DNA from: a bacterium
Lineage (GTDB): Bacteria; Vulcanimicrobiota; Xenobia; Xenobiales; JADMJV01
Direction: 5' to 3'
Length of the DNA stretch: 44,134 nucleotides
Assembly (NCBI GenBank): GCA_030149525.1
Contig: JASBRJ010000045.1
Coordinates: 1-44,134 of the forward strand
Shown here: positions 4,783 to 40,555 of the stretch, piece by piece
Layout: the number at the start of each line of letters is the position of its first letter
How positions within the stretch are numbered: position 1 is the first letter of the stretch
The notes under the pieces: model-generated
Told to the model about the DNA's origin: nothing
What the model saw: the letters and a program-made list of their open reading frames with translations, nothing else
Database searches by the model: none
Position numbers and translations under genes: made by a program

Positions 4783-5504
4783 AAAACCTGCCCGGTCACC
4801 GGCACCAGTTCCGCATTTCTTACCCAACCGGTTTTCCCGTCGCCCAGGCGAATTTCTACAAAATGGCGTTGCTTGTCCATCACTTCCACCAGCCCGCCTT
4901 GATGGAGAGCCATACCGTTAGCCTCGGACGTCGGATCGGGCAAGATTCTTGCACTAGAACTCACGATGACGGCCCGCTGAGACGGTGGATTAAGAAGGAA
5001 AAAGAGGCCTCCCACGGCTATCAGGGTGCCGCTGAGTAAGCCCAGGTGGGTTCGGCGAATGCGGACGCCGGTCAAGCGGCGTCGCAAGCCTAGGGCCAAA
5101 AGGGCCAGAGAGGGCAGTAGGAGCAAGAGTTGGGCTTCCCGCTCAGTCCACCAGGGGGTTCCCATAACATCGATTTCAGAAAGATCGGGACTGAGTTTTT
5201 CTTTCACCTCTCGAAGGCGGCGGCGTGCGGCTAAATCTCTTGGAGCATACGTGAGGGCCTTCTCCAGGTAGGCTCGCGCGAAAGCGTTCTTTCCCTGATT
5301 GCGGTAGGCCAGGCCGAGATTGTAGTAGAGGCCGAACGAAGACTCCCCGCGCGTCTCCAACTCTTTTGCCAGGGTAACGGCATAGGAGTCGTCTTTTTTT
5401 CTCACCGCCTCTACCAGTTCCGAATAGTTGCTCTGGGCTGTGCATCCCAGGGCCAAGGTGAGCAAAAGAAAGAGAAGCAGTGAGAGCTTTGTCGGGTTTC
5501 TCAT
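4779..5504 (-). CDS. batE: BatE-like lipoprotein with TPR and SH3 domains
   Basis: 241 residues. A lipoprotein signal peptide ends in LALGC (Cys near residue 21). A TPR-like helical repeat follows (about 30-105), including the YNLGLAYRNQGK motif typical of TPRs. Two membrane segments lie near 125-145 and 155-175, and a C-terminal bacterial SH3-type domain contains GKTGWV near residue 228. This order matches BatE of the Bacteroides aerotolerance (Bat) operons. It is the last gene of the operon and its ATG overlaps the batD stop by four bases. The family acts at the cell envelope with the VWA proteins BatA and BatB; the molecular role is not settled. Confidence 0.8.
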   Translation of the reverse strand: MRNPTKLSLLLFLLLTLALGCTAQSNYSELVEAVRKKDDSYAVTLAKELETRGESSFGLYYNLGLAYRNQGKNAFARAYLEKALTYAPRDLAARRRLREVKEKLSPDLSEIDVMGTPWWTEREAQLLLLLPSLALLALGLRRRLTGVRIRRTHLGLLSGTLIAVGGLFFLLNPPSQRAVIVSSSARILPDPTSEANGMALHQGGLVEVMDKQRHFVEIRLGDGKTGWVRNAELVPVTGQVF

Positions 5505-7165
5505 TTTGAAGCTTCCTTCCTGAGGGCGATGAATTCGCTTAAGAGTTGCTCAAAATTTTCGCTGCCGCTGGTGGGCCGATATCTTTGGGCGGAGACTTTT
5601 CGCCGGAGTTCCTCGTATCTTTCGATCCGTTGGGGGGTCCAGTTTTGTCCCTCGAGATGGACCGAGCGGCTTATAGAGTCATGACCTGGAGCCAGCGTCA
5701 CCAGCGCTTTCTCCAACTGAGCCATATCCTTGGGTTTGCCGAGTTGACTCCAGGCGGGAAGCCGCAGCCCTTTTCCTCCATCGCCCCCTGAGAGCGACAA
5801 CACGACTCCCATGATGCCGATCAGAAAACAACCCATAAAAAAGGAATCGGAGATGTGGCTCGACACCGGTACCATCGGTCCTGGGTTCTCCATGGGCTTC
5901 TCGCTCTCACTGTTTTTGAGCGTCTTGCCGGCTTCCGCTTCGTCGGCCGGAGCTTCACCAGGGCTGACCTGAAGTTCAATGGGGGGCGCCTTGACCACCT
6001 CATAACGCTCCACCGAGGGGCGAAAGTAAGCTAGTGCAATATCGTCGAGTTTATAACTGCCAGGTTGCTTCAGTTTAAGGCGAAACACGTAGGTTCGTTG
6101 ACTTTTCACCTGGCCTGAACGGATTTCCGTCGAGGTGTCGCCGTCGGTTTGCCGTTTGCTGAGCCCCTCCCAGTCAGGCAAGTAGGGGTAAGGCACAAGT
6201 CCAAGGTGGCCGTCACCCTCCACATCCACTTTCAACTCCACGGTTTGACCCGCCTGGGCCTGATTGCGGTTAAGGTGTGCTTTGATTTGGAATTCCTCGC
6301 CCACTGCGCCGGTGAAGCTCACCGGTTGGCCCTCGGTCGGTAAAGGCAGGACTTCCACCACTTTGGGCTGAGTAGATAGCCTCTGCGAGCGACCGAAGAA
6401 TCCGCCGAAGTTGAGTTCGACTTCCGAGGGAGGAAAGGTATACTCGCCCTCGGTGAGAGGGAAAAAAGCCGTTTTCGCTTCTGTGACAGCGTAGTTACGA
6501 CCGTCTCTTTGAGTTTGGCTACTATTTTGCTCGTTGAACGGCAGGGCCAGAAAGCCGGTTGGGCTGATGGGGTTGTAGCGAGGATCACGAAACAGCCGAA
6601 CTGCCGCCAAAAGGCGGAGAGTGTAGACGGTCGCCTGGTGCTTATAGACTCTCTTCGGTTCAAGATCCGCTTCCAGTAAAACATCCTCTCCCCGCGGAGA
6701 TTGACTCAGCCGGGGCTGGCTTGGATTGGGGAAGACCGGGTTAGACCAAGGGTTCGTTTGAGGCTGAGGATTGGACCCTAGACCGTCGGTGACTTCCAGG
6801 CGCTGGGTGAGGGTCGTGTAGTCGACTCCGTTCACCGTCACCGTCACCCCGTCGATGACGTAGCGACCCTTCTTCAAAGGGGTGATCAAAAAATTGAATT
6901 TGGAGCTTGTCTGACTGACTCCATTGATACTGGTCATGGAGATTTCGCGACCGATAGGCTGTATTTGCAGACCGAAATCGGGTCTGGCGGCGGGCGTGGG
7001 CACGTCGAGGACGTCACTTGCCCCGTTGATAGAAATGGAGAGAACAGCGGATTCGCCCATGCCGATGCTCTGATGAGAGAGCTGGGCCGTGACCTTATCG
7101 TCTCCGGTCTGGGCGGTGGCCAGGGCGGCTAGGAAAAGGAAAAGAAGAATAAGGCGCTCTACCAT
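5501..7165 (-). CDS. batD: BatD-like membrane-anchored beta-domain protein
   Basis: 554 residues starting with a signal peptide (MVERLILLFLFLAALATAQ). The long exported region has repeated beta domains with the BatD-type opening (QLSHQSIGMGESAVLSISI). A single transmembrane segment lies near residues 445-465, followed by a cytoplasmic tail of about 90 residues. Length and layout fit the BatD/oxygen-tolerance family. The ATG lies 7 bases inside the end of batC, so translation is probably coupled. It lies between batC and batE, and is expected to contribute the periplasmic part of the Bat complex. No enzymatic motif is seen. Confidence 0.85.
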   Translation of the reverse strand: MVERLILLFLFLAALATAQTGDDKVTAQLSHQSIGMGESAVLSISINGASDVLDVPTPAARPDFGLQIQPIGREISMTSINGVSQTSSKFNFLITPLKKGRYVIDGVTVTVNGVDYTTLTQRLEVTDGLGSNPQPQTNPWSNPVFPNPSQPRLSQSPRGEDVLLEADLEPKRVYKHQATVYTLRLLAAVRLFRDPRYNPISPTGFLALPFNEQNSSQTQRDGRNYAVTEAKTAFFPLTEGEYTFPPSEVELNFGGFFGRSQRLSTQPKVVEVLPLPTEGQPVSFTGAVGEEFQIKAHLNRNQAQAGQTVELKVDVEGDGHLGLVPYPYLPDWEGLSKRQTDGDTSTEIRSGQVKSQRTYVFRLKLKQPGSYKLDDIALAYFRPSVERYEVVKAPPIELQVSPGEAPADEAEAGKTLKNSESEKPMENPGPMVPVSSHISDSFFMGCFLIGIMGVVLSLSGGDGGKGLRLPAWSQLGKPKDMAQLEKALVTLAPGHDSISRSVHLEGQNWTPQRIERYEELRRKVSAQRYRPTSGSENFEQLLSEFIALRKEASK

Positions 7166-7956
7166 GTCTTGCCCTCCACAGGGGGAGCCTGAGCTCGCAC
7201 TCTCACGGGCGGGCGTCCGTCTTTCTCTTGTTGTCGGAAGTATTCCAGCAGACGCTGGCGCTCGGCGGCTTCACGGGCTTTCTTTTTCTCCGCTTCCGTC
7301 ATCTCCGGTTGACCGTTTTTCTGCTCTTTTTCTTGCTCTTTTGGCTGAGACTTTTGCTGATCGTCTTTTTGATTCTGTTTCTCTTGCTGATTCTTCTTCT
7401 GGTCTTTGCCCTTATTCTGGTCCTTGTCTTGGTTCTTGTCCTGGTCCTGATCTTGATCCTTATTTTGATTTTGGTCTTTGTTCTGTTGCTGATCCTTGTT
7501 CTTGTCTTGCTGTTGTTGCTGCTTCTGTTTTTCCAGGATCACTTCGATGTTGTGGCGGGCGTCGTCGTCATCTGGATCGGAGAGAAGCGCCTGTTGATAG
7601 GCTTTCTTCGCCTCTTCGAGTTTCTCAAGTTTGAAGTAGGAGTTGCCCTGATTGTAAAGCGCTTTGGCCTTCAGGGCTCGATTGTCCTGAACTTTGGCCG
7701 CCGATTGAAAGAGGGGGAGAGCATCCTGATATTTCTCTTGGTTGTAGAGACTGAGGCCGAGATTGTAATCCACCTGAGACTGTTGCTGGGATGGAAGTTT
7801 TTGAGCCTTAAGTTTGCGCAGTATAGACTCTGTTTTGGCCCAGTTGGCTTCTTCAGCGGCCTTCATTATGGCGCCGGCGTCCCACGGTGGGATAGCGAGC
7901 GCGCCTTGGGCCGCTGTAAGAATCATCACCAGTATGAGAAGCAGTCGAGTTCTCAT
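7159..7956 (-). CDS. batC: BatC-like TPR protein with Gln/Lys/Asp/Asn-rich tail
   Basis: 265 residues with a signal peptide (about 1-21). Two to three TPR units follow (about 28-135; VDYNLGLSLYNQEKYQDAL and KALYNQGNSYFKLEKLEEA). A low-complexity region at about 143-215 is built almost only of Q, K, D, N and E, and a short charged tail follows. BatC proteins of other phyla also pair TPRs with a charged linker, but this tract is long. The matching DNA (about 7312-7530) is a quasi-repeat that may be unstable in length between strains. The start overlaps the batB stop (ATGA). Confidence 0.85.
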   Translation of the reverse strand: MRTRLLLILVMILTAAQGALAIPPWDAGAIMKAAEEANWAKTESILRKLKAQKLPSQQQSQVDYNLGLSLYNQEKYQDALPLFQSAAKVQDNRALKAKALYNQGNSYFKLEKLEEAKKAYQQALLSDPDDDDARHNIEVILEKQKQQQQQDKNKDQQQNKDQNQNKDQDQDQDKNQDKDQNKGKDQKKNQQEKQNQKDDQQKSQPKEQEKEQKNGQPEMTEAEKKKAREAAERQRLLEYFRQQEKDGRPPVRVRAQAPPVEGKTW

Positions 7957-8987
7957 CGTCTCTTGTCAATCTCCTCAAAAACAAGTCCCAGGAAAAAGAG
8001 TGCCGCTGCCGCCAGGAGGAAAAGACCGAAGCGCTCATGACGCAGAACTTCCGTCTTGCTCCCAAAGTTTCGGGTCTGGCGCTTCTTGAGACGTTCAAGA
8101 TAACTGTCCAGGCCGTCGCTTGAGGAGTCCACACGCAGGAACATTCCGCCGGTGACCTCCGCCATCTTCTTCAGGGTGGTACCGTCGAGTTTGGAGCGTA
8201 CAGGCTCTCCCTTCTCCTTGACAAAGCCTCCATAGGGGTTGGGGACGAGGGCGCCTTCCGGGGTCCCGATGCCGATGGTGTCAATGACCACATCCTCCCG
8301 GGCGGCCTGTTCTGCCATCTCCAGAGGAGCACTTTCGTGATCTTCCCCGTCGGTAAGGAGCAAGATGACTTTACTGCCCGCCACTTTAGATTGGTCGCCC
8401 ATCTTAAAGGTTTCAAGCCCCACTTTAACAGCTTCCCCTAGAGCTGTTCCGGGAACCGGAACGGCCTCGATGGTCATTTCGTCAAGAAACAGTTCTACAG
8501 CGTCGGTATCGAGCGTGAGGGGGCAGAACAGAAAGGCAGAACCTGCAAAGCCCACCAGACCGATCCGATTGCCTTTGAGTTCTTCCACCAAAAAAGCGAG
8601 TTCCCGGCGGGCGTTCTCTATTCGCGAAGGAGCGATATCGGTGGCTCGCATAGAGCTTGAAAGATCGACGGCGATGACGATGTCGAGACCTTTCTGCTGA
8701 ACCGTTTGCTCCAGGAGGCCCCACTGAGGCCTGGTAAGAGCAAGAGCCAGGAGAAGAGCCGAGGCCCACATGAGCCCGTTGGCCCAGGGTTGGAAGCGAG
8801 CTTTTTGGGTGCCGTCTCGAAGGAGCCGATCATGCATGGCTTGAGAAACGAAGTCTCTCGTTCCCGACTGAGTCTTTCGAACTTGGTCCACAAGACGGAA
8901 AACCAGGGGACTGACGGCCACCAGGGCCACTAGCCAGAAGGCCCATTTCTGGGCGAAATAGATTTCGTCCCAACTCAAGGGGATCAT
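7953..8987 (-). CDS. batB: BatB-like von Willebrand factor A membrane protein
   Basis: 344 residues. Two N-terminal membrane segments (about 13-33 and 70-86) precede a VWA domain with an intact MIDAS motif DLSSS (108-112) and the LLTDGEDHES segment. One more transmembrane helix lies near the C-terminus (about 318-336). The MIDAS site binds a divalent metal and mediates protein contacts in this family. The start overlaps the batA stop by four bases. Placement directly after batA and before batC matches known Bat operons. Confidence 0.9.
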   Translation of the reverse strand: MIPLSWDEIYFAQKWAFWLVALVAVSPLVFRLVDQVRKTQSGTRDFVSQAMHDRLLRDGTQKARFQPWANGLMWASALLLALALTRPQWGLLEQTVQQKGLDIVIAVDLSSSMRATDIAPSRIENARRELAFLVEELKGNRIGLVGFAGSAFLFCPLTLDTDAVELFLDEMTIEAVPVPGTALGEAVKVGLETFKMGDQSKVAGSKVILLLTDGEDHESAPLEMAEQAAREDVVIDTIGIGTPEGALVPNPYGGFVKEKGEPVRSKLDGTTLKKMAEVTGGMFLRVDSSSDGLDSYLERLKKRQTRNFGSKTEVLRHERFGLFLLAAAALFFLGLVFEEIDKRR

Positions 8988-9931
8988 ACTTGCTCACCTC
9001 TGTACCGTCTCCACAGCAGAGGGAAGATGAGTAAGAGGCTCAGGACCCCGGGATAGATCATGAGTTCTCGGTAGAGAATCTCAGGCTTCTCTTCGCGTTC
9101 CACCTTTTCCAACCGGTCGATCTCGCGATAGATTTCGGCCAAGCCCTCATTGTTGGTGGCCCGAAAGGCTTTCCCGCCCGTGCGACGGGCCACCGTGGTC
9201 AAAGTTTCCATATCGATACCGGCACCGTGGAGGAAGCCGCGGGTAGTTTCGGTGCCCACCCCGATGCAGTAGATCCGAATCTTGTATTCGGCGGCAAGTT
9301 CGGCCGCTTTCAACGGCTCGATCTCTCCGGCGTTGCTCCGGCCGTCGGTGAGAAGAATGACCACCTTGGACTCGCCCGGAATGTTTTTCAGGCGGTTGAC
9401 GCAAGTCACGATGGCGTTCCCGATAGCCGTTCCGTCCCTCTGGGTGATTCCCGCGAAAATTCTCTTGAGAAGCAGTTGAAGAGTCTGATGATCGGTGGTG
9501 AGAGGGCATTGAGTGAGAGCGATGCCCGCGTAGACGACCAATCCAAGTCTGTCATCGGGGCGAGATTTGACGAACGCTTCCGAGACGGTTTTGGCAGCCT
9601 CCAGGCGGTTGGGGTGAAGGTCGCGCGCCTCCATGCTCGACGAGGTGTCGAGGCAAAGCAGAATGTCGATCCCTTCTTTGGTTCGGGGCTTTTCTCCGAG
9701 CGATTGCTGAGGCCGTGCCAGAGTTAGCAAGAGTAAGGCCCAAAAGAGAGCGTGAAGGAGATCTGTTCGCCGGCTCAAGCGCAACGGGGTGACCGATTTG
9801 GACCACTCCAGCAGATGAAGGCTGGAGTATCCCAGGCTCTTTCGCCGGGCGGTGCGGCCCCTGCGCGCCCACCAAAGGAAGAGGAGAATAAGCGGAAAGA
9901 GAAACAGTGCTTCAGGGTGTAGGAGTCTCAC
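8984..9931 (-). CDS. batA: BatA-like von Willebrand factor A membrane protein
   Basis: 315 residues. The layout is a membrane segment near 7-21, a DUF-type linker, a second helix near 58-72, then a VWA domain with MIDAS DTSSS (95-99) and the metal-site loop LLTDGRSNAG, and a final C-terminal transmembrane helix (about 291-307). This is the classical BatA arrangement and it pairs with batB immediately downstream. The start codon overlaps the preceding gene by four bases. The VWA domain is expected to face the periplasm and to act with the MoxR ATPase at the head of the operon. Confidence 0.9.
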   Translation of the reverse strand: MRLLHPEALFLFPLILLFLWWARRGRTARRKSLGYSSLHLLEWSKSVTPLRLSRRTDLLHALFWALLLLTLARPQQSLGEKPRTKEGIDILLCLDTSSSMEARDLHPNRLEAAKTVSEAFVKSRPDDRLGLVVYAGIALTQCPLTTDHQTLQLLLKRIFAGITQRDGTAIGNAIVTCVNRLKNIPGESKVVILLTDGRSNAGEIEPLKAAELAAEYKIRIYCIGVGTETTRGFLHGAGIDMETLTTVARRTGGKAFRATNNEGLAEIYREIDRLEKVEREEKPEILYRELMIYPGVLSLLLIFPLLWRRYRGEQV

Positions 9932-10812
9932 TTCTGCGGCACCTTCTTCTCTTCGCTGAGAACGGACGTCAGCTTCTCTCTGAGATCGACGGCTTCCGGC
10001 TTGCTCAGGGTGGCTCCAGCGAATTTCACCCTGTCTCCCCGCACCAAAAGCTCCTCCGTCATATCCTTAAGGTGTGAAGCGCGATTGTCCAGAATCAAAA
10101 GGTTGATAATCTCTTTGGAGGTGGCTTCCCTGGTGGCCATGCCGTAGGCCTGATTCAGGTAAGATCTCAAGATATCCACGCATTCTAGAATCGTGTCTTC
10201 GCCCTCGGCTTCAACCTTTCCGAGTCTCCTCAGGCGCTTGAGGGCCCTGGCTTTTGGAGAGCGAAGTCGGTCTAGGAGGCCGCTGTAATGAAGTAGGGCC
10301 CACAGAGCCAAGGCCAAAAGAAGAGCAGCGCCGGCGTAAGTTGCCGCTTTCTTCCAGAAATCGACTGTAGAGATTTCAACAACCGGTTTAGCCCCTCGAA
10401 TTTCACCAGGTTTGTCCTGCTCGTTGGGTTGACTCCCGGCGAATGTCATCGTCAGTTTCTCGCTTTGCACGGAGCCTGCACTAGTGGATATCTCCACCGG
10501 GCCCACCTCGAAAGAGCCGGGTTCGAAGCGAGTGAAGAGAAGGTGATAGGAGACTTTGCGATACGACCCGTCCGAGCCCTTGTCCACCATGTAGCTATCG
10601 ATGGTGGTGGCCTGGGGGACTTTCAAGTCTTTCGCGGCCGGTGGTTCCAAGGAGTTGGAAGCCAGCCATTCTAAAGTGATGACCAGTTGGGCGGGCTTCC
10701 CGAAAGGAAGAGGATCTTCGGGGAGAATCAACTCCTGGTCGATCTTTATTCCCGGCGCGGCTTGAACGACAGTGATCAGCAAAGAGAGAAATAGGAACAG
10801 GTATCGTCTCAT
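9928..10812 (-). CDS. Single-pass membrane protein of the Bat operon (BatD/DUF4381-like)
   Basis: 294 residues. It has a cleavable-looking signal peptide (1-18), an exported beta-rich domain (about 20-150) opening with IKIDQELILPEDPLPFGKPA, one membrane helix (about 157-177), and a charged cytoplasmic region of about 115 residues. The position between the DUF58 gene and batA is where many Bat operons place a small membrane protein of the DUF4381 or short BatD type. I infer the same role, not a specific function. Both ends overlap neighbouring genes by four bases. Confidence 0.75.
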   Translation of the reverse strand: MRRYLFLFLSLLITVVQAAPGIKIDQELILPEDPLPFGKPAQLVITLEWLASNSLEPPAAKDLKVPQATTIDSYMVDKGSDGSYRKVSYHLLFTRFEPGSFEVGPVEISTSAGSVQSEKLTMTFAGSQPNEQDKPGEIRGAKPVVEISTVDFWKKAATYAGAALLLALALWALLHYSGLLDRLRSPKARALKRLRRLGKVEAEGEDTILECVDILRSYLNQAYGMATREATSKEIINLLILDNRASHLKDMTEELLVRGDRVKFAGATLSKPEAVDLREKLTSVLSEEKKVPQK

Positions 10813-11789
10813 CGGCGCCCCCGAGCATCCAGGAAATTGGCCAGGCCGGGCAACGGGTCGACGTCGGTTTGAAACTCTTGCCAGTCCCAGCGGCTGCGTT
10901 TCATAAGATCCGCGAAGTGTTCATTCCAGGAGTCCCATTTGGCCTGAAACTGTTTGCGCCAATCGGGGTGAGAGGTGTCGACTCTGACCGTTCTGCCATC
11001 GGATTGATCTCGTAGTGTCACTACGCCGGAGGAGGGGATGATTCTCTCCCTTTTGTCCAGAGTTCGCAAAGCGATCACTTCGTGTCTGTAAGAGAGTTTG
11101 CGGAGCGATTGCAGCACTGCCTCGGTCTTTTCCGGCTCTTTGCTCTCCAAGATCTCAGGTGCCAGGAAGTCGGATATGAGGCAGATGAAACCGCGACGGC
11201 GAAGTTGACCGCTCAGTTCTTTGAGGCAAGCCAGCAGATTGTTCCCGCCGGTCTGCTCCTGTTTGCCCAAAGGGCTCCAGATACTCTTGAGAACGGTTTG
11301 CTTTTGGTGCCGGCCTTTACCCGGTGGGATGTAGCGGCTCAGGGTGCCGTCGGTCTTCATGAATCCGACTTTGTCGCCACTAGCAACGGCGGTTAGCACC
11401 ATTAAAGTCGCCAACTGTTGAGCCAGTTCTCTCTTGGTCTCCCCGCCGCTGCCGAAGTTTTGCGACGGGCAAGCATCAAGAACGACCACCACGGAAAGCT
11501 CACGTTCTTCTTCCGAGTTTTTGACGAAGGGTCGTCCGAAGCGCGCCGTGACGTTCCAGTCGATGGTTCGGACATCGTCACCGGGAAAATACTCGCGGAA
11601 ATCGCGAAAGTCCAGACCCCGACCCTTAAATCGGCTCCGATAGCGTCCTAACAGTCTTTGCTGAGCTAAACGCTGGGCTTTGATCTCCAACTTTTTGATG
11701 ATCCGGTCGACTTCCGCCGTTCCGGCCACCGAGGGAGAGGAGCCCGTTTCTTCGCTGCCGCGAATCTTTTTGAGTAGACCACCCAGCAC
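10809..11789 (-). CDS. DUF58 domain protein
   Basis: 326 residues if translation starts at the GTG at 11789, four bases after the moxR stop and preceded by GAGGT. Upstream ATGs lie inside moxR and give an unnatural N-terminus. The hallmark DUF58 stretch is clear at about 58-83 (GLDFRDFREYFPGDD, then R-x-IDWN). A VWA-like domain follows, starting at VVVVLDACPS, whose MIDAS is imperfect (DACPS). DUF58 proteins almost always follow moxR and are thought to be its partners or substrates in assembly of surface complexes. The stop overlaps the next start by four bases. Confidence 0.88.
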   Translation of the reverse strand: MLGGLLKKIRGSEETGSSPSVAGTAEVDRIIKKLEIKAQRLAQQRLLGRYRSRFKGRGLDFRDFREYFPGDDVRTIDWNVTARFGRPFVKNSEEERELSVVVVLDACPSQNFGSGGETKRELAQQLATLMVLTAVASGDKVGFMKTDGTLSRYIPPGKGRHQKQTVLKSIWSPLGKQEQTGGNNLLACLKELSGQLRRRGFICLISDFLAPEILESKEPEKTEAVLQSLRKLSYRHEVIALRTLDKRERIIPSSGVVTLRDQSDGRTVRVDTSHPDWRKQFQAKWDSWNEHFADLMKRSRWDWQEFQTDVDPLPGLANFLDARGRR

Positions 11790-11793
11790 CGCT

Positions 11794-12783
11794 CTACGGC
11801 ACCTCGACCTTTTCCAAAATGGAATCGATAACCCGGTCGGTATTCCACCCGTCGGCCAGGGCTTCATAAGTGAGTAAAATTCGATGCCGGAACACTTCGT
11901 GTACAAGTGCTTTGACGTCGTCGGGTGTGGCGAAGGGCCGACCCTCGAGGAGGGCGTGGGCCCGGGCGCTCTTTACCAGAGCAAGGCTGGCTCGAGGCGA
12001 GACTCCGTTCTCAATCAGTTTGTCCAGTCCCAACGCTTTGGGTTCGCGGGTAGCGAAGATGAGATCGAGGATGTAGTTCTTGACTCGGTCATCCAGATAT
12101 ACATGAGGCACCATGCGCTGGAGAGTGATGATCTGTTTGGGGTCGAGAATCGACTTGGCTTCGGGAGGGGAAGGGGCGGTCATGCGGTCGATGATCGCCG
12201 ACTCTTCGGAGCGTCGGGGAAAATCGATCGTCACCTTCAGCATGAATCGGTCTACCTGCGCTTCCGGAAGCGGGTAGGTTCCCTCTTGCTCAATGGGGTT
12301 TTGAGTGGCCATAACCAGAAAAGGCTGGGGTAACTCGAGGGTCTGATCTCCGATGGTGATCTGTTGCTCTTCCATGGCCTCAAGAAGCGCGCTTTGGACT
12401 TTGGCCGGAGCCCGGTTGACTTCGTCGGCAAGGATAAGATTGGCGAAAAGGGGGCCGCGCTTGATCTTAAAGTCGCCGCTACCGGGATTGTAGATACTGG
12501 TTCCCGTAAGGTCGGCAGGCAGAAGGTCCGGAGTAAATTGGATGCGATGGAAAGTGGCGTCGAGAGTGTCGGCCAGGGTTTTGAGCATGAGAGTCTTGGC
12601 CAGGCCCGGCACCCCTTCCAATAGGATATGGCCCTTGGCCAGAAGGCCGACCAGAACCCTCCGGATAGCGGACTTCTGCCCTACTATGATGGTTTGAATC
12701 TCTTCGGTGAGCCGCTCGGTGAGCGCTCTGGCTTCCTCGGCAAGTTCGTCGGTTAATTCTTCTTTTGTCGTTACAGTGCTCAT
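11794..12783 (-). CDS. moxR: MoxR-family AAA+ ATPase
   Basis: 329 residues from the ATG at 12783, which has AGGA about 8 bases upstream. Longer in-frame extensions run through low-quality N-terminal sequence and the spacer. Walker A is GVPGLAKT (57-64), Walker B is LILADE (116-121) followed by VNRAPAKVQ, and sensor 1 lies in MATQNPIEQEGTYPLPEAQ-type sequence, all diagnostic of MoxR. The C-terminal lid follows (PHVYLDDRVKNYIL onward). MoxR proteins are chaperone-like ATPases that mature VWA proteins. As first gene of the operon its promoter must lie in 12784-12909, just past the terminator of the upstream gene; I see no clear -10/-35 pair there. Confidence 0.93.
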   Translation of the reverse strand: MSTVTTKEELTDELAEEARALTERLTEEIQTIIVGQKSAIRRVLVGLLAKGHILLEGVPGLAKTLMLKTLADTLDATFHRIQFTPDLLPADLTGTSIYNPGSGDFKIKRGPLFANLILADEVNRAPAKVQSALLEAMEEQQITIGDQTLELPQPFLVMATQNPIEQEGTYPLPEAQVDRFMLKVTIDFPRRSEESAIIDRMTAPSPPEAKSILDPKQIITLQRMVPHVYLDDRVKNYILDLIFATREPKALGLDKLIENGVSPRASLALVKSARAHALLEGRPFATPDDVKALVHEVFRHRILLTYEALADGWNTDRVIDSILEKVEVP

Positions 12784-35510: not shown

Positions 35511-36569
35511 CTAGGCTTTCCAACCGAAAAAGTCAGTCAACTCGAGGAAGACCTTGGTGTCGGAGGGGAGAAAGCCGTGTTGTTTGGTTCCGCGTCCGTC
35601 CAGCAGAACGGTGGGAACGCCGTCCAGTTGAACACTGGAATTTTGAACCAGACCGTCGCCTCCCTCGGTGCCACCCCAGGGTTTCGTGATGGTGGCGAGA
35701 TTGCGAGAGCCGATATTGAGCATCTCGGTCGCCTGCTTTCTCTGTTTTGCCAATCTGTCGGGAGAGTTCAGTTCTACCAGATTCGGATTGGGATGAGTTC
35801 CCTCAGGGTCTTCGGGTAGCATCCACTGCATGGCTGGAAGATGTCCGGCGTGGAGATTGCCTAGTTTCATGGCGAAGTTAATGTCTCGACGGATGACGTA
35901 GTTGGCCAGGGCGGCGAAACGGGTTCCGCGATGGGCGGTCCCCAGGTAGGCGACTTGATCCACGGTCTGCTCGGTGGTATCGAGCATCTTTCGCACCGCA
36001 AGTCCCCCCATACTGTAGCCGAGAACATCGACCTTCTCCCCGTGGACGGCTTTTATCATCGAAACAGCTCTGTCCACCTGAGAGGCCGTTTCCGGTGGTG
36101 GAGAGAGGACGTCGTCGTAGACGGCAACAAAGATCTTGTCCGAATCTCGGATTTCCGTAGGTTGGGTGCAGTCTTGATCCTGGAAGGCGTTGCCCTCCTT
36201 CAGGTAAACCGCCCTTTCCCCGTTCTCCGGCGATTTCAGGAGGTGGGCGATAAGATTGTCGAACTTTTCAGGGAGCGTGGTCCAACCAGGGGCGATGAGG
36301 AAAGGATCTTCTAATTTTACCACGGGGGCATCGGAAAGAGGAGGCTTTTCGCCCAGAGCGGCGGCGGCATCCTTGGCTGCTTCCTTGTAAAGGAATCCTG
36401 AACCCGCAAACTGGGCCACGGCGATAGCGTCGGTCAAAAAAGAGGCTGAACGCTCCCCAAGGTTGACCGAGTCTCGGTCGGCCTTCCCACCTGTCTGCTC
36501 GGGCTTGGTTGAGGGCTTGTTCGGTTTAGTCGGCCAGAACCTGAAAAGATCTCCAACAGCGAATGTCAT
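35511..36569 (-). CDS. Alpha/beta-hydrolase (lipase-like)
   Basis: 352 residues from the ATG at 36569; longer frames add a low-quality leader that overlaps the kinase region. The nucleophile elbow is GYSMGG with S186. A probable triad is completed by D305 (GGDGLVQNSS) and H331 (TKQHGFLPS), the lipase/esterase layout. YLGTAHRGTRFAAL resembles lipases of the LipA/PGAP1-like group that act on lipids or esterified substrates. There is no signal peptide but an N-terminal hydrophobic start (MTFAVGDLFRFW). The ribosome binding site is weak. It starts 70 bases after the sensor kinase stop. Confidence 0.8.
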   Translation of the reverse strand: MTFAVGDLFRFWPTKPNKPSTKPEQTGGKADRDSVNLGERSASFLTDAIAVAQFAGSGFLYKEAAKDAAAALGEKPPLSDAPVVKLEDPFLIAPGWTTLPEKFDNLIAHLLKSPENGERAVYLKEGNAFQDQDCTQPTEIRDSDKIFVAVYDDVLSPPPETASQVDRAVSMIKAVHGEKVDVLGYSMGGLAVRKMLDTTEQTVDQVAYLGTAHRGTRFAALANYVIRRDINFAMKLGNLHAGHLPAMQWMLPEDPEGTHPNPNLVELNSPDRLAKQRKQATEMLNIGSRNLATITKPWGGTEGGDGLVQNSSVQLDGVPTVLLDGRGTKQHGFLPSDTKVFLELTDFFGWKA

Positions 36570-36639
36570 AGCTCGAGTATATGAGGGGCGACGCGAGAGA
36601 GTTCTAACAAAAATTTGAACTTTACCCCGGGAGCCCAGG

Positions 36640-38001
36640 TTAAGGATACTGCTCTTTGGGGAGTACGGCGGGTACCGGTTCTTTGTCCAGCAATGCCGGA
36701 TCGAGGGTGATCTCGAAAAGAGCGCCACCGCCTTCGGCTTCCTTGATGAACATGTCTCCCTTGTGCTTGCGCACGATCTCTCGACATATGGCAAGCCCTA
36801 GACCGGTGCCCCGGCCGACCTCCTTGGTGGTGAAGAACGGCTCGAAAATTTTGGCTCGATGAGCTTCCGGAACTCCTGGGCCGTTGTCGGCTACGGTCAC
36901 CATCAGTTTACCGTTACGCATTGCGGAGGTCACGGAGATCTTCGGATCGGAGACTTTGTTCTCTTTAAGAGCGTCGCGGGCGTTGGCGATCAGATTGGTG
37001 AAGACATGGGACCACTGACTGCCGTTGGCTCTCAACGGGGGAAGCTCGCCCAGGTTCAGGTTTAACTCGATGTTGTCCGTCTTCAGTTCTTCGGACATCA
37101 TCTCGCCAATGCCGGAAATAATGGAATTGAGATTGGTGTCGGAGCGAACAAAGCGACTGAATGTGAGCCCCTGTTCGGTTTGGACAGGCGAGCGCGAGTA
37201 GACCAGAAGTTTGTTGATGATGTCTTTACACTTCTCCACGGCGTCTTTCACGATGGAGAGACGCTTTTTCTTGTTGGCGTCTTCTTCTTTGCGAAGAAGT
37301 GAGCCCACCATGGTTAGAACGGCGCCCAGAGGAGTATTGAGTTCGTGAGCCACCCCGGCGGCGAGCCGGCCCACCGAAGCCAGGTGATGTTCCTCACCCA
37401 TCTCTTGCTGAATCTCCTGGATCTCGGCTTTGGCGTTCTGTTTCAGCTCATGAACCTCGTCCCGCAATCGGAAGATGTCGATCTCGGATTGCAGCCCGGG
37501 AATGACAAAAGCCAGCAGGCGAGCCACCAGATTGAGGAGACTGCGACGAGTTTCGTCGGGGCGCTCTTCGTCTTCCCAAAAAAGAAGTAATGCCGCCCCC
37601 TCCGGGTTCGGAACAGGTAGGGCTAGCAAGAAACGCCCTCCCTGAACGGCTTCCGAGCTTGTTCCGGAGTTCATGGTCTGTAGGAGAAGGTCCCGAACCA
37701 CTCCGGGTCCGGTCACTTCGGCACTGTCGCCGGATTGAAGGAGCTTTTTGAGTCCACTGTCGGTGTTCGCGTAGAGAGCGAGCCCCCCGGCGTTGGTTCG
37801 ATCCTGGCATTCTCGACAGAGTTCTTTCGCCCGAGCGTCAAGCGTTTGATCCGGCACGCGGGCGGCATCAATTAAGCCGTGCATCTCGTTGATATAGTTG
37901 TCACGAGCTTTCAAAGAAGACCAGGCTACCAGAGCTCCAGCCAGGACAATTCCGGTGGAGCAGGCCCAGAAAGCATAGATAAGGCCGTCGGCGTTCACCA
38001 T
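36640..38001 (-). CDS. Membrane sensor histidine kinase
   Basis: 453 residues. One N-terminal membrane helix (about 7-29) is followed by a GAF-like cytosolic region (about 45-170, with a CxxC pair C62/C65), a coiled coil, and a HisKA domain with phospho-His H219 in GVAHELNTPLGAVL. The HATPase domain shows the N-box (NLIANARDAL), G1 (VADNGPGVP) and G2 (GRGTGLGLAIC). No receiver domain is attached. It is divergent from the SARP regulator at 38105 with 103 bp between, so they likely form a two-component pair. No ribosome binding site is evident before the ATG. Confidence 0.93.
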   Translation of the reverse strand: MVNADGLIYAFWACSTGIVLAGALVAWSSLKARDNYINEMHGLIDAARVPDQTLDARAKELCRECQDRTNAGGLALYANTDSGLKKLLQSGDSAEVTGPGVVRDLLLQTMNSGTSSEAVQGGRFLLALPVPNPEGAALLLFWEDEERPDETRRSLLNLVARLLAFVIPGLQSEIDIFRLRDEVHELKQNAKAEIQEIQQEMGEEHHLASVGRLAAGVAHELNTPLGAVLTMVGSLLRKEEDANKKKRLSIVKDAVEKCKDIINKLLVYSRSPVQTEQGLTFSRFVRSDTNLNSIISGIGEMMSEELKTDNIELNLNLGELPPLRANGSQWSHVFTNLIANARDALKENKVSDPKISVTSAMRNGKLMVTVADNGPGVPEAHRAKIFEPFFTTKEVGRGTGLGLAICREIVRKHKGDMFIKEAEGGGALFEITLDPALLDKEPVPAVLPKEQYP

Positions 38002-38027
38002 ACACGGGTTTTAAAATTGGGCAAACA

Positions 38028-38058
38028 ATCCTTCTGAGACTTTGTTTTCAAGAAGGAT
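38028..38058. promoter_or_regulatory. Inverted repeat in the divergent kinase/regulator spacer
   Basis: ATCCTTCT (38028-38035) and AGAAGGAT (38051-38058) are perfect inverted repeats separated by 15 bases, in the middle of the spacer between the sensor kinase and the SARP regulator. It may be an operator controlling both genes, or a hairpin in one leader. Confidence 0.45.
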
Positions 38059-38104
38059 AGCAACCGTTGTGGAGAAAAGTGACCTCCGGGTTGGAAGGTG
38101 GTAA

Positions 38105-40555
38105 ATGGCAGAAAAAATTCTAGTCGTTGAAGATGACCCCTTGATGCTCTCAGCTCTCGAGATCCTTCTCGAGGATGAGGGGTATGACGTGTCTACAGCC
38201 TCGTCGGGGATGGAGGCCATTGAAAAGGCCAAAAACGAAAATTTCGACTTAGTCGTGTCGGATGTGCGCATGGCGGAGATGGACGGCATAGAAACGCTGT
38301 CCAACGTCAAGCAGCAGCAACCGGACGCCCGGTCGATCGTCATCACGGGATATGCCTCACCGGACATACCTGTTCAAGCGATCAAGCTGGGGGTCGATGA
38401 CTACATCATGAAACCGTTCGACGACCGGCAGTTCGTGGCCAGTGTCAAACGGTGCTTGGAGAGCTTCAAGCTCCAGAAAGCCTACGCATCGGGCTTGGCG
38501 ACTCAATGGAAAGACTTTTCTTCCATCATTCGCCTACTGGCCGAAGGGGTTGAGGAGAAGGACGTTCACTTCGCCGGTCACTCTCGCCGGGTGGCGGAAA
38601 CCTCGCTCAAGGTGGGTCGTCGAGCGGGGCTTGCTCGAGATCGTCAGGAAATACTGGAGTTGGCAGCCTTCCTTCACGACATCGGAAGCATCGGCCGGAA
38701 GAAAGAGTTTCTGGACAAGGCTGAAGAGCTTGTGGAAGGCGAGAAACAGGAGTTGGAAGAGTCTCGCAGCGAGACGTCCAAGAACCTGTTCTCAAGCTCC
38801 TCTTCCCTCAAAGAGGTCTTTCGAGTCATTTTGCACCACCACGAGTGGTTCGACGGCTCAGGATATCCCGACGGGCTAAAGGGAGACGAGATTCCCTTGG
38901 AATCACGCATCCTGTGCGTTGTGGAAGCATTCGACGCCATGACGAGTCCTCGCCCTCATCGCCCGCCCATGAGCCATAACGAGGCGCGCCAGGTGCTCAA
39001 TAAGGAGTCCGGCACTCACTTCGACCCAAAAATCGTCAAGCTTTTCGAGGAAGTTGTCCTTGAAGGCGACGATGAAGAAGAAGAGACTTTCGATGTGGAA
39101 GAAAACATCAGCCGCGACCGCCAGGCCGAACTGATGTTGGGGCTGGCGCAGACTTACCTGTCCGCCGGCGATCTGGAAACCGCGGGGAAAGGGTTCGAAG
39201 AGATTGTCGGACTCTATCCCGACGAGAGTAAGCCACGTTTGCTGGCGGAAGCTCGTATCGGTCTTGCTCTCTCTCTGGTTCACCGAGGTCGCGTTGATGA
39301 AGGATTGGCGGCCGTGGAGAAAGCCTGGACGGCCTCTACCGGGGAAAATGGTCTGTTGAGAGGCCGAGTCGCCCGAGTTCGGGGTCTGGCCAAAGGCTTG
39401 CATGGCAAGCTCGACGAGGGCCTCGAGTGTCTGGATACAGCCAATGAGCAGTTCCAGCAGTGGGAAGCCCACGGTGATCGTGCTACCAACCTTCTGTATC
39501 GCGCACGTCTTTTGCGAGACAACGATCGCAACGAGGAGTCTCAAAAGGCTGTCCAAGCTGCCGTCGAACTGATCGACACCATGGAACTCTCTTCCATTCT
39601 GAAGGGTGAACGCCATCTGGCCATCCCTCTCATTCTAGAGGCTCTGGTGGGAATGGACGACCCGGCCGTGGCCGAGCGATTGCTGGCCAACTTCGGTTGG
39701 GACATCGTCTCGCCGTTTATGGCCGAAGTGTCCGAGCCCGCTCGTCAAAAAGCTATGGAGCTCTTCTCCAGTCGCGAGGGAGTGACTCAGACTCCGCCGC
39801 TATCGCTTTACGCCTTCGGTAAGTTCCGAGTGTTCTCCGGCGGTAACGAAGTTCACGACAAGCTCTGGAAGACGCGAAAGTCAAAATACATTTTCGCTTT
39901 CCTGGCCACTCAGGCGGGCAAGGATGTGGGCGACGAAAAGATCATGGATACTTTTTGGCCCGATCACCCTCCGGAGAAAGCTCGACAAAGCTTGTATGCG
40001 GCGCTGTCTCACATGAGGAAGGCTTTGGAAGCCGGCGGTGAGGCGGGCGAGAACGAACGAGTGGTTCTGGCTCGTAAAGGGTTCTATAAATTCAACGATG
40101 AGCGACCCTGGTTCTTTGATGTCAGTGAGTTTGAGCGCCTCTACGATACCGGTCAAGCCCGGATCAAAGAAGGCCGCGAAGATGAAGCGATCAACGCCTT
40201 TCAGAAAGCGGAAGCTCTCTATCAAGGGCCGTTCATGGAAGGCTACTACGCCGACTGGGCCGTTTACCTGAAAGAAAACCTCGAGCTGAGATTCGTGGAG
40301 ATACTGGAAATGATGATGGACCACTTCTTCGACAAACGTCGATATGAGGTGGCCAACGAATACGCTAACCGCCTCTTGGAAATCGACAACTGTCACCAGG
40401 AAGCTCACATCTGTTTGATGTCAAGCTACATCAAGCAGGGTAAGCCCGCTCAAGCGATTCGTCAGTACCAGTCTTGTTCGCAGGTCTTCAAGGATGAGCT
40501 CAATCTCAGTCCTCCCAGTGAGATGGCCGAGATGTATCTCGAAATCACGGCTTAA
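38105..40555 (+). CDS. Response regulator: receiver, HD-GYP, TPR region and SARP/BTAD DNA-binding module
   Basis: 816 residues with GGAAGGTGG before the ATG. Receiver 1-115 (VEDD, D53 in VVSDVRM, K103 in IMKPF). HD-GYP-like domain about 145-290 with HD at H191/D192 and HHHEWFDGSGYP at 244-255; the usual His of the middle motif appears lost and the late Asp ligand is Glu (E274 in CVVEAFDAM). TPR-like helices about 335-555. The C-terminal part (about 570-816) is a SARP-type winged helix (YAFGKFRVFSGGNEVHD; FWPDHPPEKARQSLYAALSH) followed by a BTAD helical domain. This fuses a cyclic-di-GMP-type phosphodiesterase fold to a transcription factor. Confidence 0.9.
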   Translation: MAEKILVVEDDPLMLSALEILLEDEGYDVSTASSGMEAIEKAKNENFDLVVSDVRMAEMDGIETLSNVKQQQPDARSIVITGYASPDIPVQAIKLGVDDYIMKPFDDRQFVASVKRCLESFKLQKAYASGLATQWKDFSSIIRLLAEGVEEKDVHFAGHSRRVAETSLKVGRRAGLARDRQEILELAAFLHDIGSIGRKKEFLDKAEELVEGEKQELEESRSETSKNLFSSSSSLKEVFRVILHHHEWFDGSGYPDGLKGDEIPLESRILCVVEAFDAMTSPRPHRPPMSHNEARQVLNKESGTHFDPKIVKLFEEVVLEGDDEEEETFDVEENISRDRQAELMLGLAQTYLSAGDLETAGKGFEEIVGLYPDESKPRLLAEARIGLALSLVHRGRVDEGLAAVEKAWTASTGENGLLRGRVARVRGLAKGLHGKLDEGLECLDTANEQFQQWEAHGDRATNLLYRARLLRDNDRNEESQKAVQAAVELIDTMELSSILKGERHLAIPLILEALVGMDDPAVAERLLANFGWDIVSPFMAEVSEPARQKAMELFSSREGVTQTPPLSLYAFGKFRVFSGGNEVHDKLWKTRKSKYIFAFLATQAGKDVGDEKIMDTFWPDHPPEKARQSLYAALSHMRKALEAGGEAGENERVVLARKGFYKFNDERPWFFDVSEFERLYDTGQARIKEGREDEAINAFQKAEALYQGPFMEGYYADWAVYLKENLELRFVEILEMMMDHFFDKRRYEVANEYANRLLEIDNCHQEAHICLMSSYIKQGKPAQAIRQYQSCSQVFKDELNLSPPSEMAEMYLEITA

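Follow-up and report, generated by a model that had tools for sequence, protein, structure and literature searches.

Architecture of the regulator

The window, meaning the whole stretch of 44,134 nucleotides analysed here, carries a single uninterrupted open reading frame (ORF; 38105-40555, forward strand) that starts with ATG and encodes a regulator of 816 amino acids. From N- to C-terminus, the chain joins a receiver, an HD-GYP fold, TPRs, and a SARP composed of a winged helix (wHTH) and a BTAD domain (Table 1). An earlier note on this DNA had read these four parts in one chain, and the ORF, the Pfam matches and the Foldseek matches together confirm that reading.

Table 1. Features of the regulator and its surroundings (positions in the window; res., residues of the regulator).
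Feature	Positions	Strand	Basis
BatD / von Willebrand / DUF58 / TPR cluster	5501-11906	-	
Lipase-like protein, GYSMGG motif	35511-36794	-	
Histidine kinase, HisKA + HATPase_c, HELNT motif, divergent from the regulator	36640..38001	-	Pfam
Intergenic region between kinase and regulator, 103 bp	38002..38104	.	ORF boundaries
Receiver domain, res. 5-114	38117..38446	+	Pfam Response_reg, 105 bits
Long signalling helix, res. 107-151, continuous receiver-to-HD joint	38423..38557	+	AlphaFold2 model
HD-GYP fold, degenerate, res. 145-310	38537..39034	+	Pfam HD_5, 124 bits (cut-off 27); Foldseek match to DvhD
H159 = PmGH metal ligand H189, kept	38579..38581	+	Alignment
H191-D192 = HD dyad (PmGH H221, D222), kept	38675..38680	+	Alignment
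S195, replaces catalytic lysine (PmGH K225, HDxGK)	38687..38689	+	Alignment
S220, replaces middle metal histidine (PmGH H250)	38762..38764	+	Alignment
H245-H246 = PmGH H276, H277, kept	38837..38842	+	Alignment
E274, replaces metal ligand D305 of PmGH	38924..38926	+	Alignment
R283-P-H-R286, predicted nucleotide-contact arginines (PmGH R314, K317; DvhD R650, R653)	38951..38962	+	Alignment
TPR/helical-repeat region, ~res. 337-555	39113..39769	+	Pfam TPRs ~340-490; AlphaFold2 helical repeats
SARP winged-helix DNA-binding part, ~res. 564-660	39794..40084	+	Pfam Trans_reg_C 589-647, weak; AfsR match
BTAD domain, res. 671-814	40115..40546	+	Pfam, 81 bits
Ser/Thr protein kinase-TPR-WD40 gene, runs past contig end	40630-44133	+	

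The receiver retains an acidic pocket (E9/D10/D11), the phospho-acceptor D53, T81, and K103, the last three being near-invariant across 25 family sequences. Together with the winged helix (mean pair identity 0.75), it is the best conserved part of the regulator, and the TPR region is the least conserved large part (0.36 among six divergent orthologs, versus 0.59 for the HD domain). The Pfam Trans_reg_C match scored 19.9 bits, under the cut-off of 26.2; the winged helix is backed by Foldseek, in which the SARP domain matched AfsR as solved in complex with its promoter (8k60/8hvr; TMt 0.78). That single match, of 253 columns, spans the SARP of AfsR, a wHTH followed directly by BTAD, and AfsR was also the top match for the whole 816-residue chain. 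The full-chain AlphaFold2 model has a mean pLDDT of 84.7 and a pTM of 0.38, so the relative placement of its domains is unreliable.

Each half of the chain has familiar relatives. The N-terminal 330 residues resemble a common REC-HD-GYP regulator, sharing with PmGH and with REC-HD-GYP proteins such as RpfG the fold, the HD dyad, the HH and GYP motifs, and the order of receiver, helix and HD domain. The C-terminal half shares the wHTH and BTAD effector of the SARP activators AfsR and EmbR, and AfsR also has TPRs. Canonical actinobacterial SARPs are N-terminal, whereas this one is C-terminal (residues 564-814), and instead of the NOD ATPase or FHA of AfsR/EmbR, control would be exerted through the receiver and HD domain. 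No antibiotic cluster was apparent near the regulator. Outside the phylum, REC-HD-GYP (profile positions 1-322) and TPR-SARP (337-819) occur as separate matches, so the protein seems to have arisen by the joining of a common regulator of the REC-HD-GYP type to a TPR-SARP half.

A linked histidine kinase

Five further genomes of the family, and two of the class (f4), also carry a homolog of the divergent histidine kinase beside the regulator; directly upstream of several f2 and f3 orthologs, no kinase homolog was seen. In the window genome itself, a kinase gene abuts nine of the ten receiver-SARP paralogs, with several overlaps of 1-14 bp. Overall, the case for the regulator as the response regulator of a two-component system is strong, and the adjacent kinase is likely its cognate partner. 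The intergenic region contains no convincing sigma-70 site (the sigma-70/terminator scan performed at chance level), and the sequences upstream of the orthologs shared no repeat obvious by eye.

Other neighbors are listed in Table 1. The Ser/Thr kinase-WD40 gene, which begins 74 bases downstream of the regulator, was ruled out as part of the unit by its absence beside orthologs. The lipase-like protein has a weak homolog near one ortholog (L036), and the cluster of BatD, von Willebrand, DUF58 and TPR genes is typical of MoxR-Bat systems.

A phylum-restricted family

Full-length orthologs with 46-63% identity were found across the family, order and class of the window genome. Their presence in 11 genomes of the class besides this one rules out an assembly or frame artefact, and two further genomes contain an incomplete copy (G011) and a copy split across two frames (G015). 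A profile search recovered the family in 21 of 149 genomes from Eremiobacterota (Vulcanimicrobiota in NCBI), a little-studied phylum, and a pattern scan of 84,980 species found full-length matches confined to this phylum group. No chain with all four parts appeared among the listed matches in 28 other genomes with REC-HD relatives. Likewise, 291 genomes from the phylum of L081 and 400 from that of L100 yielded REC-HD or TPR-SARP halves only, in a search that scored few candidates per genome and that rare cases could escape. Among the sampled genomes, the four-part architecture is thus a phylum-restricted family with many members and not a one-off.

Two records call for comment. The split ortholog (G015:C75; L129/L133) consists of a REC-HD-TPR frame and a SARP frame, a split that may be genuine or due to a frameshift error. 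JAAZKF010000334 (L039) is titled Burkholderiales; its regulator match values equal those of G013 (L124), a genome of the window's order, and the title is probably wrong.

The combination was, according to the earlier note, without a well-studied example, and in the open-licence literature we found no already described family with this order, although automatic domain databases may list it. The same literature gave no HD-GYP domain with BTAD and a response regulator, or with SARP and TPRs; the single match joining SARP, c-di-GMP and HD-GYP appears to be a review of Streptomyces regulators. The best NCBIfam match is the NosR family (NF053512, 248.1 bits), and membership was ruled out by its cut-off of 400. 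NosR-type proteins do resemble the regulator in combining a receiver with a degenerate HD-GYP, and NosR is phosphorylated by a partner kinase (PMC12570481). They differ in that NosR of B. pseudomallei carries an HG-GTP motif, has lost the HD dyad, and is without a DNA-binding part (PMC12570481).

A degenerate metal site

Residue equivalences were assigned by alignment to PmGH (4MCW), whose numbering serves as the reference. Five of its eight metal ligands are kept and invariant among orthologs (H159, H191, D192, H245 and H246). The HD dyad, HH pair and GYP motif are all intact in the window protein, and the GYP tyrosine is unconserved among orthologs. As the earlier note had proposed, an ESRSETS-like sequence replaces the middle histidine: LEES(220)RSETS lies at the H250 position, and the equivalent of H250 is missing from 14 of 14 orthologs. 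The note would have been refuted by metal ligands reappearing on alignment, which for this one cannot happen. Masking by misalignment was ruled out since the stretch H191-H244 has no spare histidine; 12 of the 14 orthologs, this one included, have none between HD and HHH.

The note had also pointed to E274 in place of the late aspartate. The substitution itself is correct; its bearing on function is weaker than supposed, as glutamate is usual in the family and may still bind metal. A third change, absent from the note, is the replacement of the HDxGK lysine by S195. These differences set the regulator apart from active HD-GYPs such as PmGH, as does the added TPR-SARP half. Across the family, a lysine equivalent to K225 occurs in 0 of 23 members versus 34 of 35 other HD-GYPs; glutamate occupies the D305 site in 19 of 23 members versus 1 of 35 others (34 of which have aspartate); and histidine replaces the tyrosine of RPYR in 17 of 23 versus 0 of 35. 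These changes mark a distinct HD-GYP subfamily.

Mutants of PmGH provide a guide to the consequences. H250A and K225A each abolish hydrolysis, D305A reduces it, E185A and D305A retain some activity, and alanine changes in GYP, R314 and K317 leave hydrolysis without substantial reduction (PMC4159591). Because residues critical in PmGH (H250 and K225) are replaced here, the domain has likely lost c-di-GMP hydrolysis, in keeping with the note's suggestion that it may not cleave the nucleotide; the third altered site, that of D305, points the same way.

An altered phosphodiesterase that is still active would instead make the protein both enzyme and transcription factor. Its intact motifs would allow this: E274 can bind metal, H155 occupies the PmGH E185 position and could act as an extra ligand, and two PmGH mutants are only partly impaired. 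Yet both sites whose alanine mutants are dead in PmGH are replaced, with no substitute histidine, and the GYP tyrosine varies among orthologs, so we regard a bifunctional enzyme as very improbable.

A putatively retained nucleotide pocket

Of the predicted nucleotide-contact arginines, R283 is present in 22 of 23 family members and R286 in all 23, and their equivalents are retained even where a member's metal site is broken. The HD-only model (pLDDT 91.5) has as its best solved Foldseek match the c-di-GMP-bound domain of DvhD from Desulfovibrio vulgaris (9RBZ, 9RC0; TMq 0.85, 2.4 A, 31% identity). DvhD has lost both HD and HH, yet it binds c-di-GMP, metal-free and without cleaving it, and also responds to cGAMP; in its canonical site the c-di-GMP is contacted by R650, M646 and E668, and both R650A and Y652A/R653A weaken stabilisation by the ligand (PMC13090378). 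A HMMER alignment equates these residues with R283 (R650), R286 (R653), M279 (M646) and E301 (E668), which are nearly invariant in orthologs.

The resemblance has limits. DvhD sits in the membrane as a receptor that carries dCache and PAS domains, whereas the predicted output of the regulator is DNA binding, and the HD and HH motifs that the regulator keeps are SQ and MN in DvhD. Furthermore, DvhD Y621, K582 and the bridging-site P567 correspond to Y254, K214 and K199, at positions not conserved as such (that of Y254 is H, K or V in orthologs). Because these equivalents are unconserved, the nucleotide may be bound in a mode different from that of DvhD.

Sixty-one of 176 HD positions are invariant among six divergent orthologs, including D153, H159, H191, D192, H245, H246, E274, D277, R283 and R286; the ortholog L124, outside this set, has Q at the R283 position and A at that of E274. 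In a seven-ortholog set, the chance that positions 159, 191, 192, 245, 246, 283 and 286 are all invariant is ~4e-4, a figure to be taken as a guide only given that core histidines and arginines are usually conserved.

The draft genome of the host (8.27 Mb) contains 42 GGDEF, 22 HD_5, 9 EAL and 101 PilZ matches, many of the PilZ in tandem pairs. With this complement, c-di-GMP is very likely in use in the organism and is a plausible ligand. The contact residues, the DvhD-like fold and the genome's signalling repertoire are together consistent with the pseudo-HD-GYP acting as a c-di-GMP receptor that serves as a sensor for DNA binding.

The pocket might instead hold another ligand, such as 3'3'-cGAMP, pGpG, c-di-AMP or a mononucleotide. 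By sequence, the best PDB match is V-cGAP3, a 3'3'-cGAMP phosphodiesterase; the response of DvhD to cGAMP and the loss of the nearly universal RPYR tyrosine in most of the family would fit such a choice. Retention of the guanine-contact residues, and GGDEF and PilZ counts that suggest c-di-GMP to be the principal messenger of the genome, argue otherwise, and we consider a different ligand improbable.

Erosion of the HD domain

The HD domain has followed several courses. The equivalent of H250 is still present in many members from other parts of the phylum, among them that of L128, which also keeps D305 and has Q at the K225 position; it was lost a single time in the ortholog clade, and some other members are also without HH. 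A quick tree of the SARP domain, with some long branches, places the orthologs without the middle histidine together (SH-aLRT 96) and scatters vestigial or strongly damaged HD domains over several separate places.

The window genome also holds an expanded set of receiver-X-TPR-SARP paralogs (contigs C19, C187, C358, C184, C101, C37, C76, C73, C6 and C270), nearly all beside a histidine kinase, in which the HD domain is vestigial or unrecognisable. Those on C19 and C187 keep only a DGSG-P-IPL-SRI vestige of HD-GYP (hhalign E 2.8e-12), and profile comparison gave no support for an HD domain in the middle region of those on C358, C184, C101, C37, C76, C73 and C270. Since two paralogs retain a vestige and most others show none, this class of regulator can work without the domain. 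A further arrangement, receiver-less HD-TPR-SARP with HT for the HD dyad and ASL for GYP, is encoded twice in the same genome (L009 on C325 and L010 on C380); related proteins occur in families of the phylum other than its own (L184, L185 and L193).

This series of losses, across the phylum and among the genome's own paralogs, and the existence of kinase-linked receiver-SARP proteins with no HD domain suggest the main rival to a ligand-binding role. The HD-GYP would then be the scaffold of a spent enzyme, binding no nucleotide and passing on to the SARP the dimer changes that phosphorylation drives in the receiver. Such a scaffold would not readily account for five metal ligands and the contact arginines staying invariant in the ortholog clade while neighboring positions vary, or for the persistence of R283 and R286 equivalents in relatives with a broken metal site. 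We therefore hold it to be somewhat unlikely, and a c-di-GMP receptor remains our preferred reading of the domain.

Proposed mechanism and significance

We propose that the regulator is a phosphorylation-gated SARP activator in which the pseudo-HD-GYP is a c-di-GMP receptor within a dedicated two-component system, and assign this model a probability of about 0.5. The adjacent kinase would phosphorylate D53 of the receiver, and the long helix would couple the receiver to an HD domain that has lost hydrolysis, kept its nucleotide pocket and, probably, kept part of its metal site. Binding of c-di-GMP, or of a relative such as 3'3'-cGAMP, would alter the geometry of the receiver-HD dimer in the manner of DvhD; ligand and phosphorylation together would then free or dimerise the SARP at the C-terminus, the TPRs serving as a coupling arm.

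At their promoters, SARP activators recognise direct repeats with a spacing of 11 or 22 bp. AfsR, for example, binds direct repeats near the -35 element and recruits RNA polymerase (PMC10936776), and the SARP of the regulator may act on its own targets in the same manner.

More tentatively, and at somewhat less than even odds, the family may have arisen when a retired HD-GYP became a c-di-GMP sensor that gates a SARP jointly with phosphorylation, forming a phylum-specific coincidence detector from which the sensor was later lost stepwise in the expanded paralogs.

Known transcription factors that respond to c-di-GMP, such as BldD, FleQ, VpsT and Clp, are built on other folds. Within the open-licence literature, we found no paper describing a direct coupling of an HD-GYP domain to DNA binding. 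Because the family holds intact-like, partly lost and vestigial HD versions together, it makes it possible to ask how an enzyme domain becomes first a sensor and then a linker. If the proposed mechanism is true, the regulator would give this phylum's large c-di-GMP network a link to transcription.
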